Program-made: the position numbers and the translations under genes
Assembly: GCA_018500105.2 (NCBI GenBank)
Contig: JAHBAL020000288.1
Coordinates: forward strand, 1-38,914
Direction of reading: 5' to 3'
Source of the DNA: Anaerolineae bacterium
Lineage (GTDB): Bacteria; Chloroflexota; Anaerolineae; J036; Brachytrichaceae
Length of the DNA: 38,914 bases
Notes under the pieces: generated by a model
What the model was told of the DNA's origin: nothing
The model's input: the letters and a program-made list of their open reading frames with translations, nothing else
The model's database searches: none
In this document: positions 15,681 through 25,183 of the stretch, piece by piece
How positions within the stretch are numbered: the stretch's first letter is position 1
Layout of the letters: each line of letters begins with the position of its first letter

Positions 15681-15849
15681 AATTATGAATTATGAGTGAT
15701 GAATGATGAATGAGTAACGAGTAACGAGTAACGAGTAACGAGCAGTAAGTAAATTATTGGTTGCTTATTACTCGTTACTCATTACTCGTTACTCATTACT
15801 CGTTACTTATCACTCGTCTCTTCCCATTCATCACTCATAATTCATAATT
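15681..15849. repeat. Heptamer-word giant hairpin H3 (GAGTAAC and AATTATG words)
   Basis: A 169-base palindromic structure. The basal arms 15681-15705 and 15825-15849 pair perfectly over 25 bases. Inside them the left arm has four tandem GAGTAAC words and the right arm has alternating ACTCGTT and ACTCATT words, so most of the interior can pair in several registers. The words repeat every 7 bases, and even the base is AATTATG AATTATG. It fills the divergent gap between cofD and the GNAT gene, so any promoters for these genes must lie in or beside it. Confidence 0.9.
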
Positions 15850-16845: not shown

Positions 16846-18888
16846 GTGAACGCCTTTATCAGCCCCACTGGCAGCATCCAATTGCTGACCTTGCCTTTTT
16901 ATGTAGAACTTGCCCTCATCATCCCTATCGGTTTGCTGTTTTATCTTGCGCCAGCCTATGCTTTGCTCGATGCGTTTGCGGGGCGGGCCTTGCGCCAAGC
17001 CGAATTTACGCTGGCTGAGCGCGTGTCGTTGGCGTTGGGGTTTGGCGCGGCGCTGCCGCCGTTGTGGGTGGAATTGACCAGTGCGGTGGGGCTGCGCTGG
17101 TCGCCCTTGTTGGCATGGGTGTATGTGGGCAGCGGGGCGGTTTATGTGGCTTGGCGGTTTGTTCGACACTGGCGAACCCGCGCTCGCCCGATTGCCATTG
17201 ACACACCTGCGCTAATGTTGGCGATATTGATGCTGGTGGCGCTGGCGGGCCGCATGTGGGCCATTCGTGATTTGCCGGTCGGTTTGCTCGGCGATGCCTA
17301 TCATCACACCATGATGGCGCAACTGATCGCCGAAAATGGCGGCTTGTTCAAAAATTGGCTGCCCTATGCCGATCTTGGGACGTTCACCTATCATTTCGGT
17401 TTTCACGCCAACGCCGCTATGCTGACTTGGCTGACCAGTCTTGAAACACCGCGCACAGTGTTATTTGCCGGTCAATGGATGAACACGCTGGCTGTGCCGT
17501 TGGCCTTTTTGCTCACCTCGCGCCTCATCAAGCTCAGTCAGCCAACCCAGACCCAATTCGCCGCCCTTGCTGGTCTCATTGCCGCCGCCCTGACTGGTTT
17601 TTACAATTTATATCCGGGCTTTGTCGTCAACATGGGCCGCTACACCCAATTGACCGGCCAAAATGTCTTAGCCATCGCACTTGTGCTGACAATTGAAAAT
17701 TTAAAATTTAAAATGGAAAATGGAAAATGGCTGCCTTCAATTTTAAATTTTAAATTTTTAATTTTAAATTCTATTTCATTGGCGTGTTTGTTCCAAACCC
17801 ACTACTTGGTGACCGCATTTGCGGGCATGTTTGTGGGGTTGTTGGTGTTGATGGCGCTATTGCGGGCCAAAACTTGGCGACATCAATTCGTGGTGCTGCT
17901 TGTGATGGGCGGCATTGGCCTGCTGGCGTTGCTCTTGGCTGCGCCTTGGCTGATTAACGTCAGCAGCGGTTTTTTACTGCGCAACGCTAGTGGCTATGTT
18001 GCCCCAAACGATGGCGAAGAGGTTCGGCAAGTGGTGGCGCAAGCGGCGATACTTGCGCCCATCGTGCCCCATTTTCTAAAAGCGCCAATTTTATGGCTGG
18101 CAGCGGCGGGCGCACTCATCGCCGTGCGGCGGCGGGCGTGGCTGTTGGCAATGCCGGTGCTATGGTCGGCGGCGCTGGTGCTCATCGTCGTGCCATACTT
18201 GCTTGGCTTGCCCGGCGCGGGCATTATTGACTATCTTACGGCATTCAGCGTCCTTTATCTCACGCTTATCCCGCTGGCGGCTTACACATTGGGAAATTTA
18301 AAATTTAAAATTGAAAATTTAAAATTATTTCCAATTTTAAATTTTGCCCTGCTGGTCTTGGCGGCGTGGGGCAGCACGTGGCAGGCCAATATCGTCGAGC
18401 CAGAGCGCCAAATTTACAATTGGGCCGATCATCGGGCTATGTTGTGGATACGCCAAAACACGCCGCCGGATGCGCGATTTTTTGTGAATGGCTTTCCGGC
18501 ATATGGCGGCTCGTTGATCGCTGGCAGCGATGCTGGCTGGTGGATTCCGCTTGTCACCCAGCGCAAAAGCACGCTGCCGCCGTTGACCTACGGCAGCGAG
18601 CGCGGCATGAATAACGAAGATTTGTTTGCGCGAGTCAACCCACTCTATCAGCAGTTGCGCGGGCGACGCTTGCCCGACACCACACCGGTTTCGCTTGATC
18701 TGACCACACCGACGGCGCTCGATTTGTTGCGCAAAGCCGGTGTGACGCATATTTACAGCGGCGCAAAACCTTTCCCCCCGCCCAACGGGGCGGACCGTGT
18801 TAATCTTGAGCTATTGCGGCGTCACCCCGCGTTTAAGTTGCTTTATGCCGAGGGTGGTGCTGAGGTGTATGAGTTGAGTAGTCAGTAG
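16846..18888 (+). CDS. Large polytopic membrane protein, GT-C glycosyltransferase-like
   Basis: A 680-residue protein with about twelve hydrophobic segments in the first 500 residues and a soluble C-terminal region. The first large loop contains LLGDAYHHTMMAQLI (D150), and a second loop has YHFGFHANAAML, the acidic/His arrangement of GT-C transferases of the ArnT/PMT type that use polyprenyl-phosphate sugars. This fit is moderate, so polymerase or a protein of another fold remain possible. Two AT-rich heptamer hairpins (17698-17756 and 18300-18345) are translated in frame as Leu/Lys/Phe/Asn-rich segments at about residues 282-309 and 484-500. The last codons (SSQ and the stop) come from hairpin H6. 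The GTG start follows a TATAAT box by 9 bases. Confidence 0.62.
   Translation: MNAFISPTGSIQLLTLPFYVELALIIPIGLLFYLAPAYALLDAFAGRALRQAEFTLAERVSLALGFGAALPPLWVELTSAVGLRWSPLLAWVYVGSGAVYVAWRFVRHWRTRARPIAIDTPALMLAILMLVALAGRMWAIRDLPVGLLGDAYHHTMMAQLIAENGGLFKNWLPYADLGTFTYHFGFHANAAMLTWLTSLETPRTVLFAGQWMNTLAVPLAFLLTSRLIKLSQPTQTQFAALAGLIAAALTGFYNLYPGFVVNMGRYTQLTGQNVLAIALVLTIENLKFKMENGKWLPSILNFKFLILNSISLACLFQTHYLVTAFAGMFVGLLVLMALLRAKTWRHQFVVLLVMGGIGLLALLLAAPWLINVSSGFLLRNASGYVAPNDGEEVRQVVAQAAILAPIVPHFLKAPILWLAAAGALIAVRRRAWLLAMPVLWSAALVLIVVPYLLGLPGAGIIDYLTAFSVLYLTLIPLAAYTLGNLKFKIENLKLFPILNFALLVLAAWGSTWQANIVEPERQIYNWADHRAMLWIRQNTPPDARFFVNGFPAYGGSLIAGSDAGWWIPLVTQRKSTLPPLTYGSERGMNNEDLFARVNPLYQQLRGRRLPDTTPVSLDLTTPTALDLLRKAGVTHIYSGAKPFPPPNGADRVNLELLRRHPAFKLLYAEGGAEVYELSSQ
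17691..17775. repeat. Heptamer-word hairpin H4 inside a coding region (AAATTTA words)
   Basis: Perfect 17-base arms at 17698-17714 and 17740-17756 made of AAATTTA words, in strongly GC-rich surroundings. It is translated in frame in the membrane-protein gene as residues such as NLKFKMENGK and SILNFKFLILN. Confidence 0.85.
18292..18346. repeat. Heptamer-word hairpin H5 inside a coding region (AAATTTA words)
   Basis: The same AAATTTA word as H4, with 14-base perfect arms at 18300-18313 and 18332-18345. It is again in frame, giving NLKFKIENLKLFPILNF. Two copies of one word in one gene suggest local spreading. Confidence 0.82.
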
Positions 18889-19013
18889 TCAGATAGAAGA
18901 ATCAAGAACCAAGAACCAAGAATCAAGAATTAAGATGGAATATGAGTAGTAAGCACTTACAATACTCATCTGACTACTGATTACTGACTACTGTCTACTG
19001 TCTGCTGACTACT
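18877..19013. repeat. Heptamer-word hairpin H6 (AGTAGTC and AGAACCA words)
   Basis: The left arm (from 18877) holds AGTAGTC words, followed by AGAATCA/AGAACCA words, an inner small hairpin, and a right arm of CTACTGA/TTACTGA/CTACTGT words to 19013. The outermost 17-base arms (18877-18893 and 18969-18985) pair with one G-T-type mismatch. The stop codon of the upstream gene (18886-18888) lies in the left arm. Confidence 0.85.
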
Positions 19014-19022
19014 TGTAATAAT

Positions 19023-20213
19023 ATGAAAATCGCAGTTATCGGCCCCACTTATCCCTTTCGCGGGGGCATTGCACATTACACCACGTTGCTGGTGAAGCAT
19101 TTGCGCGAGCGCCACGAGGTGCGATTTATTTCGTATCTCAAGCAATACCCCAAATGGCTTTTTCCGGGCAACACCGCGCTCGATCCGTCGTCGAAATCTG
19201 ACGTGCTGCAAGTGCAATGTGATCGGGTTTTAGAGCCGCTCAACCCGTTGTCGTGGTGGCGAACGTATCAGATCATCAAAAAGGATCGCCCCGATTTGCT
19301 GTTGTTGCAATGGTGGACACCGTTTTGGTCGCCGATGTTGTTTTTGCTCACGCGCCTCATTCAGCGCACCGCCAGCCTCGCCGACATGCACGTTTTGTTC
19401 ATTTGTCATCATCTCATCCCGCCCGATGGTGGCGTGTTGGATTGGTTTTTGGCGCGGCGCATTTTGTGGCGCGGCGATTCTTTCATCGTGATGAGTGAAG
19501 AAGATTTCGCGTTGTTGCGGCGGGCCTTGCCGCAAGCCCGCATCAAAGGCACAGCATTGCCGCCTTTTGACGTGTTTAACCGCACACCTATGCCCAGCGC
19601 CGACGCTCGCGCCAAGCTCAATTTGGCCCCTGATGATGAAGTATTGCTGTTTTTTGGCTTCATTCGCCGTTACAAAGGCTTGCGCTATTTGCTCGAAGCG
19701 TTGCCGCACATTCGCCAGTCGCGCCCGGTCAAGCTGATTGTGGCGGGCGAATTTTGGGAGGATGAGCGCCCATACCGTGAATTGGTGCAGCAATTGGGCG
19801 TGCAAGATGCGGTTCAGTTTTACAGCAACTATATCCCCAACGAAGAAATTTCGCTGTATTTCAGCGCCGCCGATGTGGTGGTGATGCCGTATTTGGAGGC
19901 CACCCAAAGCGGCATTGCCCAACTTGCCATCAGTTTCGAGAAGCCCATGATCGCCACTTCGGTCGGCGGGATGCCCGAAGCCATTCACCACAATTCGACC
20001 GGGCTGATCGTGCCGCCCGCCAATAGTGCCGCGCTGGCGGAAGCGGTGCTGCAATTCTTCGCCAATGATTTGGCTGAGCCATTCGCACACGCCATCCGCG
20101 CCGACAAAACCAGCTCGTCGTGGCAGCCGCTCATCGCCTTGGTTGAGGAGCTAACTGCGATGGGCCGCAACGACATGTCTGACCCAAAGGCTAAATCACC
20201 TAGAGTGTTGTGA
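19023..20213 (+). CDS. Glycosyltransferase family 4
   Basis: A 396-residue GT-B fold glycosyltransferase. The N-domain starts MKIAVIGPTYPFRGGIAHYTTLLVKHL, with the Gly-rich acceptor loop seen here as FRGGIAHYT. The C-domain has LLFFGFIRRYKGLRYLLEAL and ATQSGIAQLAISFEKPMIATS followed by VGGMPEAI. In the usual E-x7-E donor motif the second position is Gln rather than Glu, as in the ATQSG subgroup. It is cytoplasmic or peripheral to the membrane and transfers a sugar from a nucleotide donor in polysaccharide assembly. Hairpins H6 and H7 occupy the gaps on both sides, and no ribosome site precedes the ATG. Confidence 0.82.
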   Translation: MKIAVIGPTYPFRGGIAHYTTLLVKHLRERHEVRFISYLKQYPKWLFPGNTALDPSSKSDVLQVQCDRVLEPLNPLSWWRTYQIIKKDRPDLLLLQWWTPFWSPMLFLLTRLIQRTASLADMHVLFICHHLIPPDGGVLDWFLARRILWRGDSFIVMSEEDFALLRRALPQARIKGTALPPFDVFNRTPMPSADARAKLNLAPDDEVLLFFGFIRRYKGLRYLLEALPHIRQSRPVKLIVAGEFWEDERPYRELVQQLGVQDAVQFYSNYIPNEEISLYFSAADVVVMPYLEATQSGIAQLAISFEKPMIATSVGGMPEAIHHNSTGLIVPPANSAALAEAVLQFFANDLAEPFAHAIRADKTSSSWQPLIALVEELTAMGRNDMSDPKAKSPRVL

Positions 20214-20227
20214 GAGTGACAAGTAGC

Positions 20228-20316
20228 AAGTGCTAAGTGCTAAGTGCTTACTTATCGCCAAGCACTCAGGACTTAACACTTAACACTCAGGACTTAGCAC
20301 TTAGCACTTAGCACTT
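20228..20316. repeat. Heptamer-word hairpin H7 (ACTTAGC words), terminator-like
   Basis: Perfect 20-base arms at 20228-20247 and 20297-20316. The right side consists of consecutive 7-base words: ACTTAAC twice, ACTCAGG, then ACTTAGC three times. It is followed at once by TTTATT on the plus strand, so it could act as an intrinsic terminator after the GT4 gene. Confidence 0.88.
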
Positions 20317-20325
20317 TTTATTCTG

Positions 20326-22329
20326 ATGCGTTTCGTTTTCCTTTGCACCTCCAGCATCGAAGATGCCTCGCCGCAAGGCCGCTGGCTGCCCATTGCTTGT
20401 GAACTGACGAACGGTGGGCATGAGGTGCATGTGCTGATGTTGCACCCGATGTTTGATCAACTGGCCGCCAAGCAGGTGGTGTTGAACGCGGCGGGCACGC
20501 TGGTGGCTCAACACGTTGGGCAAATGCACGTTTATGGCAAGCCCGGCAGCCGGCGATATTTCGGGCCGTTGCAATTGCTCGGCATCACTGCCCGCGCCAC
20601 CTTCGCGCTGGCGCGTCATGCCATTGCGCTTAAGCCTGATGTTATTCAAGTGTGCAAGCCGCAGCCGATGAACGGGTTGGCGGGCTTAATCGCGGCGCGT
20701 TGGCTTAATCGCCCTTTGCACGTGGATTGCGATGATTATGAGGCCGAGTCGAACCGTTTTAGCAGCGCATGGCAGAAAAAGCTGGTGCAATTTTTTGAGG
20801 ATCGTTTGCCGTGCTTGGCACGGGCCATCACCGTCAACACGCGCTTTTTGTTCAATCGCTATCGCTCGCTCGGCATCCCTGCCGAAAAAATGACGTATGT
20901 GCCAAACGGCATCGCAGCCAATCCCCAGCCCCCAATCGCCAATCGCCAATTCCCAATCTCTAAAATTGTTTATGTTGGCACAATGAGCAAAATCTCGCAC
21001 GGAACCGATTTGCTCATCGAGGCATTTGCCTTGCTACGCCGCCAATTTGCCGATGTGCGGCTGGTGATGGTTGGCGATGGCGACGACCGCCCGGCATTGG
21101 TGGCACAGGCCCAAACCTTGGGCATTGGTGCGGCGATTGATTGGGTAGGGCGTGTGCCATTTGCCCAGACGCAGGCGTATTACGCCGATGCCATTTGTTC
21201 GGTTGACCCCGTATTTGATCGGCCTGTGATGGGCGCACGCTCGCCGCTCAAGATTGTCGAGAGTTTGGCGTGTGGCACACCTGTCGTGACTGGCGATGTG
21301 GGCGATCGGCGCGAAACGCTACTGGGAGGCCAGCCGTGCGGGGTGTTGGTCGCGCCGGGTAATGCCCAAGCCCTTGCCGATGGCTTTGCCACGCTATTGG
21401 GTGACGCAAACTTGCGGGCCGAGATGGCGCACAATGCCCCATTACGCGCCCGCGAATTTGATTGGGCAGCTCTGGCGCAACGCTGGGCGGGGCAATATCC
21501 GCCCAACGGTAGGCTGTGGGGGCAAAACAAACCCCATGCTGCCATTGTGCATCTCTTTTATCTTGACCTTGCAGCAGAGTTACTGGGCGCGTTGTTGCCT
21601 CTGCAAGCCCAGCTCGATATTTATGTCACGGTTCCCGAAAAAGCGGCGGCACAATTTGAGGCGAGCATCTTGGCACTTTGCCCAGCGGCGCGGGTGTTGC
21701 CAGTGGCAAATCGCGGGCGCGACATTTTGCCATTTATGATGGTGTTGACGCAGATTCAGCATTTGAATTATGGCTTTATTTTGAAATTGCACAGCAAAAA
21801 GTCAAAGCATTTGGCGGATGGGGCACGTTGGCGCAATGAGGTAGTGGGCGGTTTGACCGATGACGCCGACAAATTGCTGGCTTATATCACCGAGCCGACC
21901 CATCGGGTGGCGTTGGTCGCCCCGCGTGGGCATATTGTGGATGGCAAAAAGTATGTGGGCGGGAATTTGGCGCGAATGCGGGCGCTGCTGGCCTTGTATG
22001 GCATCGCCCTTGATGATGCGCATATCCCCGCTTTTCCAGCGGGGTCCATGTATTGGATTCGCAAAGATGTGGCGGATTTGCTGCTGAAGCTATCGCCTGA
22101 GTCTTTTGAGCCAGAGCGCGGGCAAATTGATGTGACTTTGGCCCATGCGATTGAGCGCATTGTGCTGGCGCTGGCGGTCAAAGATGGCAGTCGCGCCATT
22201 TACCCCAATTTGCTTGATTATCAGCACGAAGTCAATCAAAATTATGAGTTTGCTCATGACAGCGCCAACACGCCACCTGTGAAGCGCAGCCGGTGGCAAA
22301 AAATAGTGCGGTGGTTGGGAGGGAGGTGA
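20326..22329 (+). CDS. Fusion of GT4 glycosyltransferase and RgpF-like (rhamnan synthesis F) domain
   Basis: A 667-residue two-domain protein. Residues 1 to about 385 are a GT4 (N-domain MRFVFLCTSSIEDASPQG; C-domain IVYVGTMSKISHGTDLLIEA, DWVGRVPF, and PLKIVESLACGTPVVTGDVG, with the donor Glu). From about residue 400 it resembles RgpF: HAAIVHLFYLDLAAELL, LPVANRGRDILPFM and ILKLHSKKS are characteristic, as is FPAGSMYWIRKD. RgpF-type domains add or link rhamnose-rich chains, so the fusion may add two consecutive sugars. A heptamer-word tract (20930-20960) is translated at about residues 200-212 as PPIANRQFPI in the linker between the two Rossmann lobes. The next gene starts after a repeat-filled gap. 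Confidence 0.8.
   Translation: MRFVFLCTSSIEDASPQGRWLPIACELTNGGHEVHVLMLHPMFDQLAAKQVVLNAAGTLVAQHVGQMHVYGKPGSRRYFGPLQLLGITARATFALARHAIALKPDVIQVCKPQPMNGLAGLIAARWLNRPLHVDCDDYEAESNRFSSAWQKKLVQFFEDRLPCLARAITVNTRFLFNRYRSLGIPAEKMTYVPNGIAANPQPPIANRQFPISKIVYVGTMSKISHGTDLLIEAFALLRRQFADVRLVMVGDGDDRPALVAQAQTLGIGAAIDWVGRVPFAQTQAYYADAICSVDPVFDRPVMGARSPLKIVESLACGTPVVTGDVGDRRETLLGGQPCGVLVAPGNAQALADGFATLLGDANLRAEMAHNAPLRAREFDWAALAQRWAGQYPPNGRLWGQNKPHAAIVHLFYLDLAAELLGALLPLQAQLDIYVTVPEKAAAQFEASILALCPAARVLPVANRGRDILPFMMVLTQIQHLNYGFILKLHSKKSKHLADGARWRNEVVGGLTDDADKLLAYITEPTHRVALVAPRGHIVDGKKYVGGNLARMRALLALYGIALDDAHIPAFPAGSMYWIRKDVADLLLKLSPESFEPERGQIDVTLAHAIERIVLALAVKDGSRAIYPNLLDYQHEVNQNYEFAHDSANTPPVKRSRWQKIVRWLGGR
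20930..20960. repeat. Heptamer-word repeat H8 inside a coding region (AATCGCC words)
   Basis: Words CAATCGC CAATCGC CAATTCC CAATC repeat every 7 bases, with no opposite arm. The tract is in frame in the linker of the GT4 half, so it is tolerated as added residues. Confidence 0.65.
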
Positions 22330-22332
22330 GTG

Positions 22333-22462
22333 GCAGAGTTGCAGGTTGCAGAGTTGCAGGTTGCAAGGTTGCAGGTTACAAGGTTGCAGGTTGCAGAGTT
22401 GCAGGGGGCAAAACTGACACTTTGCAACTTTGCAACCTGCAACCTGCAACCTGCAACTTGCC
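22333..22462. repeat. Heptamer-word hairpin H9 (GTTGCAG words)
   Basis: The left arm (22333-22406) has GTTGCAG/GTTGCAA words in mixed 7- and 8-base steps. The right arm (22421-22462) has CTGCAAC words, its reverse complement, so many pairing registers exist. It starts 3 bases after a stop codon and fills most of the gap before the FkbM gene. An open frame runs through it, producing a spurious LQVAELQV-like N-terminus. Confidence 0.9.
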
Positions 22463-22497: not shown

Positions 22498-23349
22498 ATG
22501 TTAAAGCGTCTTATTCATTACATTCAGGTCATCCGCGAACACTATCGCACTAGTCCACAATCTCTCGAAGATCAGTTGTATGAGGGTTTGATTGAACGCG
22601 GCGACGTGGTGTATGACATTGGCGCAAACTATGGCTCGGTGGCGCTATATATGGCGCACTTGACCGGCCCGACTGGGCGCGTATATGCGTTTGAACCGAT
22701 TCCGACCACTTACCAAAAATTATGCCGCAATTTGCGTTACGATTTTCGTCTGAACAAGGCCAAGATCACCCCATTACAACTGGGTGTGTCTGATGCCAAT
22801 CAGATGGCGGTGTTCAATTTGCCGGGCGAGGCCAATCAGTCTGCCTCGTTAGCGCGGGCTGAAGAATGGCAGCAGGCGTTGGGGATGGGCGCACAGACGC
22901 ACACATTTGAGTGCCGATGCATGACGCTCGACAGCCTGATCGAATCGGGCGAGGCTGCGCCGCCAAATGTGATTAAGATTGACGTGGAAGGAGCCGAATT
23001 ACTGGCATTACGTGGGGCGGGTAATCTGCTCAAATCGCCCAAGCCACCGCTCATGTTGATTGAAGTTTTCGCGCCTTGGGAGCGTGCCTTTGGTTATACC
23101 CCTTGGGCTGTGTTTGAATTGCTTTTGGCGGCAGGGTATCGCATCGTGTATGTTTGCCCCGATGGCTTGCGCGATTTTTCGCCCACCGCCGAAAAACCTG
23201 CACCACCCGAATATGAACACGGCTACAATATTATTGCGTATGTGCCGGGCAAACACGATGGGCGAATGGCTAGCTTGCGACCATTATTTGCGGGTCGCAG
23301 CGCTGCGCGTCTGCTGCCCATGTCGCCTGCGCCGATGCCGAATAAGTAG
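22498..23349 (+). CDS. FkbM-family methyltransferase
   Basis: A 283-residue class I methyltransferase of the FkbM type, which O-methylates sugars or small molecules. Motif I is VVYDIGANYGSVALYMA, the strand-2 acidic end is VYAFEPIPTTY, and the family-specific IKIDVEGAELLALRGA follows with the Asp and Glu expected for metal or substrate binding. The start at 22498 (MLKRLIHYI) gives a normal family length. The open frame extends 56 codons upstream through hairpin H9 but that part is repeat-encoded. A perfect TATAAT lies 10 bases before the ATG. The stop TAG is supplied by hairpin H10. It sits between a GT4-RgpF fusion and a flippase. Confidence 0.86.
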   Translation: MLKRLIHYIQVIREHYRTSPQSLEDQLYEGLIERGDVVYDIGANYGSVALYMAHLTGPTGRVYAFEPIPTTYQKLCRNLRYDFRLNKAKITPLQLGVSDANQMAVFNLPGEANQSASLARAEEWQQALGMGAQTHTFECRCMTLDSLIESGEAAPPNVIKIDVEGAELLALRGAGNLLKSPKPPLMLIEVFAPWERAFGYTPWAVFELLLAAGYRIVYVCPDGLRDFSPTAEKPAPPEYEHGYNIIAYVPGKHDGRMASLRPLFAGRSAARLLPMSPAPMPNK

Positions 23350-23439
23350 TCAGTAATCAGTAGTCAGTAATCAGCTAGGAGAATCAAGAACCAAGAACCA
23401 AGAAATTAGGACTAATCTGGCTGCTGACTACTGACTACT
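23345..23439. repeat. Heptamer-word hairpin H10 (AGTAGTC and AGAACCA words)
   Basis: AGTAGTC/AGTAATC words on the left, AAGAACC words in the middle, and CTGACTA words on the right. Arms 23359-23375 and 23423-23439 pair over 17 bases with one G-T-type mismatch. It shares both word types with H6, 4.5 kb away. The FkbM stop codon (23347-23349) lies in its left end. Confidence 0.85.
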
Positions 23440-23452
23440 CCCCAACCAACCT

Positions 23453-25120
23453 ATGTTGCAATACTGGCTAAACCTCATTCTGAATCGCACACAACCGATG
23501 TCGGAGGGGCATCGCCGCTACCAGCGTATTGGGCAGGCCATTGTGACTGGCTTCTTGGGCAAGGGGGTTCTGGTGCTGGTCAATTTAATCGCCGTGCGTT
23601 GGGTGCTGGGTTACTTGGGGGCCGAGCGATACGGCGCTTGGATGACGATCAGCAGTTTGCTGGCGTGGATCGCGATTGCCGATTTTGGTCTGGGCAACGG
23701 CCTCATCACCTCACTATCAGAGGCGTATGCGCACGGGCGGCGCGATGCAGCCCAACGCATTGTGGCGACCGCTTTTTGGTTGTTGACGATGATTGCGGTG
23801 GTGTTGTGGCTTGTTTTAGGCGGTGTCGCCTTGCTAATAGATTGGGGCTGGGTGCTCAATGTGCGCTCATTTGATGCCCAAGCCGAAGTGAATTTGGCCG
23901 TATTTGTCGCGCTATTTATCACGCTTTTGGGGCTGCCTATGTCCATCATCGAGCGAATTTACCGCGCTCACCAAGAGGGCGCGAGTGCCAACTATTGGTC
24001 GGCCTTGGGTAGTGTGCTTAGCCTGATCGCCTTGATGATTGCCACCAGTTTGCGCGGCGACCTCATGTGGCTGATCGTGGCATTTTCGGGCATGGCGCTG
24101 GCGGTGCAAATCGGCTCGGCGTTATGGCTGTTTGGCTGGCACATGCCTTGGTTGCGCCCCACATTGGCCGTAGCCGATATGACCCAATCGCGTGGCATTG
24201 TCACCACCAGTTTGCAATTGTTCATTTTGCAAATTGCCGCGCTGGTCATTTTGCAAACCGACAACCTCATCATTGCACGGCTATTGGGGGCCGAAGCGGT
24301 AACCCCGTATAGCGTGACATGGCGCTTGTTCAATTACGCCTCGTTGCTGATGGCATTTACTGCGCCAGTGCTGTGGCCGGCCTATGCCGAGGCAAATGCG
24401 CGGGGGGATGTGGCATGGATGCGTCGCGCATTTTTGCGCAGCAGCAGCACCAATATTGCGATCACAGCGGGGTTGTCGTTGTTTTTGGTCATCATCGGGC
24501 AATGGTTTGTCCGAATTTGGACCGGCAGCGAAGCAGCGGTGGCCCCATTTTGGGTGTTTGTGGGCATGGCGGTGTGGAATACCATTAGCGTGGTGACAAC
24601 GGCGACCTTTACCTTTTTGGGCAGCCTCGACCGCTTGCGTGGGCCGGTGGTCTATGGCATTTTGTCTGCCATTGCTAACCTCATCTTCTCCATCATTTTT
24701 GCCCAATGGTATGGCATTACGGGCGTCATTTGGGCAACTGTGCTGGCGTATGCGCTGTTTAACTTGGCCCCGTCTGTGGTTGAGGTGGCGCAAATTTTGC
24801 GCACGCCCGTTGCCACATCTGCCCAAACCACTACTAACCCCGCCGAGACCGATGCCGAAGACGAGCCGCCTTTTGACGACGTGGATGTCGTTAAAGCTGC
24901 CCGTTTTAGCGAGGAATGGCGCGAACCGAGTTTTGCGCCCGATGCCCAAGCTGCGCCCTTTGCCAAGCGCGTATCGCCACGAGCGGCGACATGGCTGTCG
25001 CGATTTCGCACGCAATCTGCCAAAAATGAAGCGCCTGTGCCAGTCATTGACGCTATCCCGCCAAACATTGTGTTGCGGCAGCCTGCCTCCCGCACGGATA
25101 AGAAAGTTGATAGTGGATAG
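23453..25120 (+). CDS. Oligosaccharide flippase (Wzx/MATE-like)
   Basis: A 555-residue polytopic membrane protein with about 12-14 hydrophobic helices over roughly residues 28-450. The first two contain GKGVLVLVNLIAVRWVLGYL and LGAERYGAWMTISSLLAWIA, and ADFGLGNGLITSLSEAYAHG follows. This is the polysaccharide biosynthesis/oligosaccharide flippase signature that begins Wzx-type transporters, which move lipid-linked repeat units across the cytoplasmic membrane. A hydrophilic acidic C-terminal tail of about 105 residues (from near residue 450) is unusual and its role is unknown. The last residues VDSG and the stop come from hairpin H11. It closes the plus-strand run and is convergent with argJ. 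Confidence 0.84.
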   Translation: MLQYWLNLILNRTQPMSEGHRRYQRIGQAIVTGFLGKGVLVLVNLIAVRWVLGYLGAERYGAWMTISSLLAWIAIADFGLGNGLITSLSEAYAHGRRDAAQRIVATAFWLLTMIAVVLWLVLGGVALLIDWGWVLNVRSFDAQAEVNLAVFVALFITLLGLPMSIIERIYRAHQEGASANYWSALGSVLSLIALMIATSLRGDLMWLIVAFSGMALAVQIGSALWLFGWHMPWLRPTLAVADMTQSRGIVTTSLQLFILQIAALVILQTDNLIIARLLGAEAVTPYSVTWRLFNYASLLMAFTAPVLWPAYAEANARGDVAWMRRAFLRSSSTNIAITAGLSLFLVIIGQWFVRIWTGSEAAVAPFWVFVGMAVWNTISVVTTATFTFLGSLDRLRGPVVYGILSAIANLIFSIIFAQWYGITGVIWATVLAYALFNLAPSVVEVAQILRTPVATSAQTTTNPAETDAEDEPPFDDVDVVKAARFSEEWREPSFAPDAQAAPFAKRVSPRAATWLSRFRTQSAKNEAPVPVIDAIPPNIVLRQPASRTDKKVDSG

Positions 25121-25183
25121 TGATAGTGGATAGTTGTTTACTATCCACTATCACTATCCACTATCACTATCTACTATCAACTT
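25104..25183. repeat. Heptamer-word hairpin H11 between convergent genes (GATAGTG words)
   Basis: Perfect 25-base arms, 25109-25133 and 25141-25165, with a 7-base loop. The words are GATAGTG and GATAGT alternating. The flippase stop codon (25118-25120) is in the left arm. It lies between two convergent genes and could act as a bidirectional terminator. A second run of words on the right extends pairing registers. Confidence 0.93.

Follow-up and report, generated by a model that had tools for sequence, protein, structure and literature searches.

The palindromes H4 and H5, two AT-rich segments in one membrane-protein gene of an Anaerolineae bacterium, probably belong, as coding copies, to a class of heptamer hairpins that is found throughout the genome and would have arisen by slippage and fold-back copying. 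This class is seen in the number of its members, their 7-nt period, the pairing of their arms, the polarity of the pairs, a shared vocabulary of words, dispersed composites, the change of words at fixed sites and in-frame copies in protein loops.

Two heptamer hairpins in a membrane-protein gene

The window, i.e. the whole stretch of DNA analyzed here, spans 38,914 nucleotides and belongs to a MAG (G000) of 5.34 Mb in 574 contigs. All features of the window described below are on the plus strand. The host gene (16846..18888) was delimited as an ORF with a GTG start and encodes a polytopic membrane protein of 680 amino acids. Profile and structure-family searches yielded no Pfam, NCBIfam or PDB family above the cut-off, and orthologs are present in 25 of 60 relatives. 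H4 (17691-17770) and H5 (18294-18344) are both in frame, and the gene is open through both of them, as the first-pass annotation had stated.

Each hairpin consists of a tandem 7-nt word, AAAATTT with its variants AAAATTG and AAAATGG, followed by the reverse complement. The purine-rich 5′ arm of H4 (17691..17730), in which all three heptamers occur, codes for IENLKFKMENGKW. Its pyrimidine-rich 3′ arm (17736..17770) is composed of TTTTAAA heptamers and codes for SILNFKFLILNS, which continues into the next predicted transmembrane helix (298-316). H5 has a 5′ arm (18294..18326) of AAATTTA heptamers with one AAATTGA unit, coding for NLKFKIENLK, and a short 3′ arm (18330..18344). Tandem Repeats Finder reported period 7 at 17691-17730, 17739-17770 and 18294-18326, and the H4 arms 17691-17725 and 17736-17770 are 86% complementary (93% over the inner 28 nt), which confirms both palindromes at the place given in the first-pass annotation.

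The above-chance feature of the window hairpins is the 7-nt periodicity. In a lag scan of the window, 12 separate arrays were obtained at lag 7, compared with none at lags 3-6 and 8-12. The bare word AAATTTA occurs 20 times against 10 expected, and this 2-fold excess is weak evidence. The folding of H4 is strong (z = -4.3, with 0 of 200 shuffles as good), and for H5 alone z is -1.8 with 11 of 200 shuffles as good, so that folding energy by itself is insufficient for H5. The host gene had also been described as very GC-rich, which does not hold: its GC content is 54.5%, compared with 50.7% for the window, 16% for H4 and 6% for H5. A uniform AAAATTT array contains a stop every 21 nt in every frame on both strands. 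This stop is avoided by a variant unit in each hairpin, AAA-ATG-GAA in H4 and AAA-ATT-GAA in H5, in place of AAA-ATT-TAA. An AlphaFold run with two sequences gave a pLDDT of 35 and was not used.

H4 and H5 in place of existing codons

We aligned the host protein with its relatives. Residues equivalent to those of H4 were found only in a close relative, the sister genome recorded as Chloroflexi bacterium REEB501 (G002), and 15 further relatives are without them. In place of H5, even G002 has an ordinary loop. The Lys/Phe/Asn/Leu-rich residues are thus missing from orthologs outside G002, and the view that both hairpins are foreign to the gene and represent one kind of element is upheld.

The expectation that they had been inserted was borne out as far as foreign in-frame DNA is concerned, but not as regards length. 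In the H4 region the spacing between the GQ and THY motifs is 44 residues compared with 34-42 in relatives without the element, so that a hairpin of 27 codons adds just 2-10 residues. Across H5 there are 73 residues compared with 80 in G002, i.e. 7 fewer than in the loop replaced. Because these spacings are near the lengths in relatives, both hairpins appear to have replaced existing loop or helix-edge codons. Judged from these alignments, H4 and H5 would mostly have overwritten codons that were already there, rather than being simple insertions, with the H4 mapping leaning on the alignment of a poorly conserved loop. The hairpin segments of MutS and TopA, described below, seem closer to net insertions.

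The spacing also bears on whether H4 and H5 could be ancestral AT-rich parts of the protein, since relatives do have a loop of similar length at both sites. Such an origin is nevertheless highly improbable and is refuted by the alignment: the H4 residues are common only to G002 and the H5 residues occur in no relative. In addition, the same peptide is found in the unrelated genes topA, ilvA, an Mfd-like gene and a MoeA-like gene, and the DNA that encodes it here is 6-16% GC within a 54.5% GC gene.

A genome-wide class of paired heptamer arrays

Genome-wide figures were obtained from a 434-kb sample, part of which was picked for AAAATTT hits, and from pattern searches of the whole genome. The sample contains 146 period-7 arrays, about 34 per 100 kb, and the next-highest period reached 4.8. 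In 155 kb of contigs picked by number, regardless of content, there were 41 period-7 arrays per 100 kb and 0-6 for the other periods from 4 to 11. Extrapolation at about 34 per 100 kb gives roughly 1,800 arrays in this genome, a figure that carries the partial choice of the sample for AAAATTT hits.

An inverted partner lies within 150 nt of 101 of the 146 arrays, compared with 7 when the same arrays were placed randomly; the other 45 are without a partner at this distance. The words vary by site and fall into 46 classes among the 146 arrays, with AATGAGT as the commonest word in G000. Two arrays share a word with a probability of 0.036, compared with 0.0014 for simulated random words. The first-pass annotation had pointed out that the same word occurs twice in the host gene. 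The arms of H4 and H5 are indeed 94% alike over 32 nt, but the claim was an understatement, as the AAAATNN family is present throughout the genome and is one of dozens of heptamer words.

The pairs have a pronounced polarity, with a purine-rich 5′ arm and a pyrimidine-rich 3′ arm. It was found for 97 of the 101 paired arrays in G000 (97:4) and in a ratio of 148:9 when ten genomes were pooled, counts in which both arms of one hairpin may be included. The purine-first ratio was 44:0 for exact inverted repeats overlapping heptamer arrays. The corresponding ratio was 64:25 for the remaining inverted repeats of G000, which possibly include decayed arrays, and 14:10 for those in samples of relatives. 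Since the polarity is identical on both strands, it cannot reflect the direction of replication or transcription.

Several members of the class surround the host gene in the window. Intergenic hairpins are located at 15697..15817 (GAGTAAC/TTACTCG) and 20213..20324 (AAGTGCT/AGCACTT), and the intergenic segment 18877..19013 is a composite of TAGTCAG outer arms and an inner CCAAGAA array, of which a second copy lies at 23341..23439. A single array of CCAATCG (20917..20958) is in frame within a glycosyltransferase/RgpF gene (20326-22329). Further hairpins are GTTGCAG/CTGCAAC (22333..22461), with a 7+8 nt hybrid period, and GGATAGT/ACTATCC (25104..25183). The hybrid periods within the latter two, 15 (7+8) and 13 nt, suggest one-base slips within units. 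At the end of the host gene (18868-18888, GAG TTG AGT AGT CAG TAG) the last codons and the stop double as the opening units of the TAGTCAG array downstream; G002 reads GAA TTG AGT GGT CAA TAG at this position. A phage DNA search with one stretch of the window gave no match.

Dispersal and turnover of the hairpins

The genome has eight sites with the TAGTCAG and CCAAGAA composite, identical in their internal junction and unrelated in their flanks, and the reversed junction, used as a control, has 0 copies in the genome. The eight copies share their junctions yet end at varying points of the arrays, and by eye no target-site duplication was seen among them. At fixed sites the words are exchanged between genomes. 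The three intergenic hairpin sites of the window compared with G002 contain GAGTAAC and GAGCCAT words (15697..15817), TAGTCAG and GTTAATG words (18877..19013) and AAGTGCT and AAAGTGC words (20213..20324), respectively. Similarly, H4 has AAAATTG units in G002 where the window has AAAATTT. The two versions of H4 differ at 13 of 86 positions, including two clear compensatory pair changes.

Of 298 genomes of the class, 118 contain the TAGTCAG word, in a scattered distribution, and the vocabularies overlap within and between G000, G002 and a third genome, G003. No arrays were found in 60 kb sampled from G001, a genome labelled as the same genus as G000, which indicates that some lineage-specific factor is involved. 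The MutS and TopA proteins of G001 are only 61-65% identical to those of G000 despite this label, which may be doubtful. An AT-type hairpin is also present in frame in a MoeA-like gene, named from its translation, on a contig recorded as Thermoflexus hugenholtzii (a MAG; L123, 3001-3139).

Copies within protein-coding genes

ORFs of at least 200 codons make up 86% of the sample and contain 24 of the 146 arrays (about 16%); arrays are about five-fold depleted in genes. Coding copies were found in topA, mutS and the genes for threonine dehydratase, a UDP-sugar dehydrogenase, a DegT-type aminotransferase, an Mfd-like protein, 2-oxoacid:ferredoxin oxidoreductase, an FGGY kinase and hydantoinase A, with some of these loci taken from the AAAATTT pattern search outside the 434-kb sample. 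The segment in TopA comprises 31 residues, compared with 4 in PDB 6ozw, and that in MutS 28 residues, compared with 4 in the structure template. Both sites are variable loops in ortholog alignments. In mutS (L072, 6264-9050) about 800 bp separate two arrays of opposite orientation, CCAAAAT and ATTTTGG, neither of which has a partner close by; arrays in a mismatch-repair gene are curious in view of the repeat load.

Words that are stop-free on both strands account for 12 of the 24 coding arrays compared with 16 of the 122 non-coding ones (Fisher p = 0.00016, with arrays of the same ORF not being independent). Among the non-coding words, the 13% that are stop-free on both strands compare with 50% of all heptamers.

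Possible origin of the hairpins

We propose that the arrays change in length by 7-nt slippage. The nascent purine-rich strand would fold back, copy itself and rejoin the template, and this intrastrand template switching would both make the second arm and keep the arms complementary. The purine-first polarity would fit a nascent purine-rich strand that copies itself after fold-back. Dispersal to new sites may occur by ectopic fold-back copying or through a putative mobility function. Most copies that arrive in genes would be purged, and the survivors would be those that replace loops tolerant of indels and that have variant units at the positions at which a stop would arise in a uniform array. 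The T-rich 3′ arm of H4 encodes Phe, Leu and Ile, with which the following helix may begin; this would help to explain why the arm is tolerated. We do not infer any benefit of the hairpins for the host. As a more tentative proposal, in which we place limited confidence, some Chloroflexota lineages may possess a dedicated and hitherto undescribed hairpin-copying process, enzymatic or replicative, that provides purine-rich 7-nt arrays of any kind with a complementary arm on their 3′ side, disperses the composites and continually rewrites the loops of housekeeping proteins.

The dispersed composites, with common internal junctions at unrelated sites, would also be expected if the hairpins were non-autonomous mobile elements of the MITE or REP type that are mobilized by a transposase in trans and have the heptamer arrays as their terminal structures. 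The vocabulary common to G000, G002 and G003, within and between these genomes, and the patchy spread over 118 of 298 genomes are consistent with such mobility as well. However, the hairpins have no fixed ends, their words change freely at a single site and the eight composites showed no target duplication by eye. Moreover, G002 and another genome, G015, carry TAGTCAG arrays without a Y1 transposase of the REP type or a reverse transcriptase. We therefore regard mobile elements of this kind as an unlikely explanation. A role as transcription terminators or mRNA processing sites, with accidental drift into genes, is less probable still, even though 122 of the 146 arrays are intergenic and many are able to pair over long arms. 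Convergent gene pairs show no enrichment of arrays (5 of 61 gaps compared with 42 of 283), most arrays lie between tandem genes, as gaps generally do, and an Rfam search gave no match. A terminator in a coding sequence would be harmful, yet topA and mutS hold coding copies.

Several candidates for machinery that correlates with the arrays were rejected. The array-carrying genomes G002 and G015 have no match to PF01797, the Y1 transposase of REP/RAYT systems, and reverse transcriptase is missing from G000, G002 and G015. Loss of the hairpin nuclease SbcD is not a correlate either, as SbcD is present in array-rich genomes; in G000 it is represented by only two partial matches, at contig ends.

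Relation to known repeats and significance

Heptanucleotide repeats are known from cyanobacteria as STRR repeats. In the P6b stem of the Nostoc trnL intron the repeated 7-nt motif is either TDNGATT or NNTGAGT, and one and the same site has shifted from one to the other (PMC4476775). The hairpins described here resemble P6b in having tandem 7-nt units on both sides of the stem, in length changes by 7-nt steps and in the swapping of word class at a fixed site, and AATGAGT, the commonest word of G000, fits the class II motif NNTGAGT. Unlike P6b, which is one site in one intron, they are genome-wide, use dozens of words, occur in protein genes and are purine-first. Rickettsia palindromic elements are dispersed palindromic repeats found as in-frame fusions to unrelated housekeeping genes (PMC10969869). 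We tested for the same property and found in-frame palindromic DNA in unrelated protein genes. However, the Rickettsia elements (about 100-150 bp) form families with conserved sequences and peptides, whereas here only the 7-nt architecture is conserved and both words and peptides vary.

Abundant dispersed heptamer tandems are also known from Chloroflexus aurantiacus, of the same phylum, as (GATAGRA)n satellites (PMC6749651), and from Beggiatoaceae as TAACTGA direct repeats, with a single inverted set among 170 (PMC4679880). In contrast to the hairpins, both were described as direct repeats of one main word. According to a proposal cited in the Beggiatoaceae study, slippage by 7 nt is favoured by the contact length of the polymerase. 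REP/RAYT palindromes (PMC3733652) are likewise short and dispersed, and are extragenic; compared with them, the present hairpins have no conserved tag and a Y1 transposase is not consistently present. In the openly accessible literature we found no description of genome-wide heptamer hairpins in protein genes or of a purine-first rule.

For the annotation of Chloroflexi proteins, artificial-looking peptides such as NLKFKIENGK and SILNFKF are to be expected. Beside the Rickettsia elements, the hairpins provide a second example, independent of sequence, of palindromic DNA in essential proteins, including MutS and topoisomerase I. There is no agreed cause for the heptamer repeats known from several bacterial phyla, and the high density of paired hairpins, the strand rule and the site-by-site differences between sister genomes make the origin of the 7-nt unit testable.
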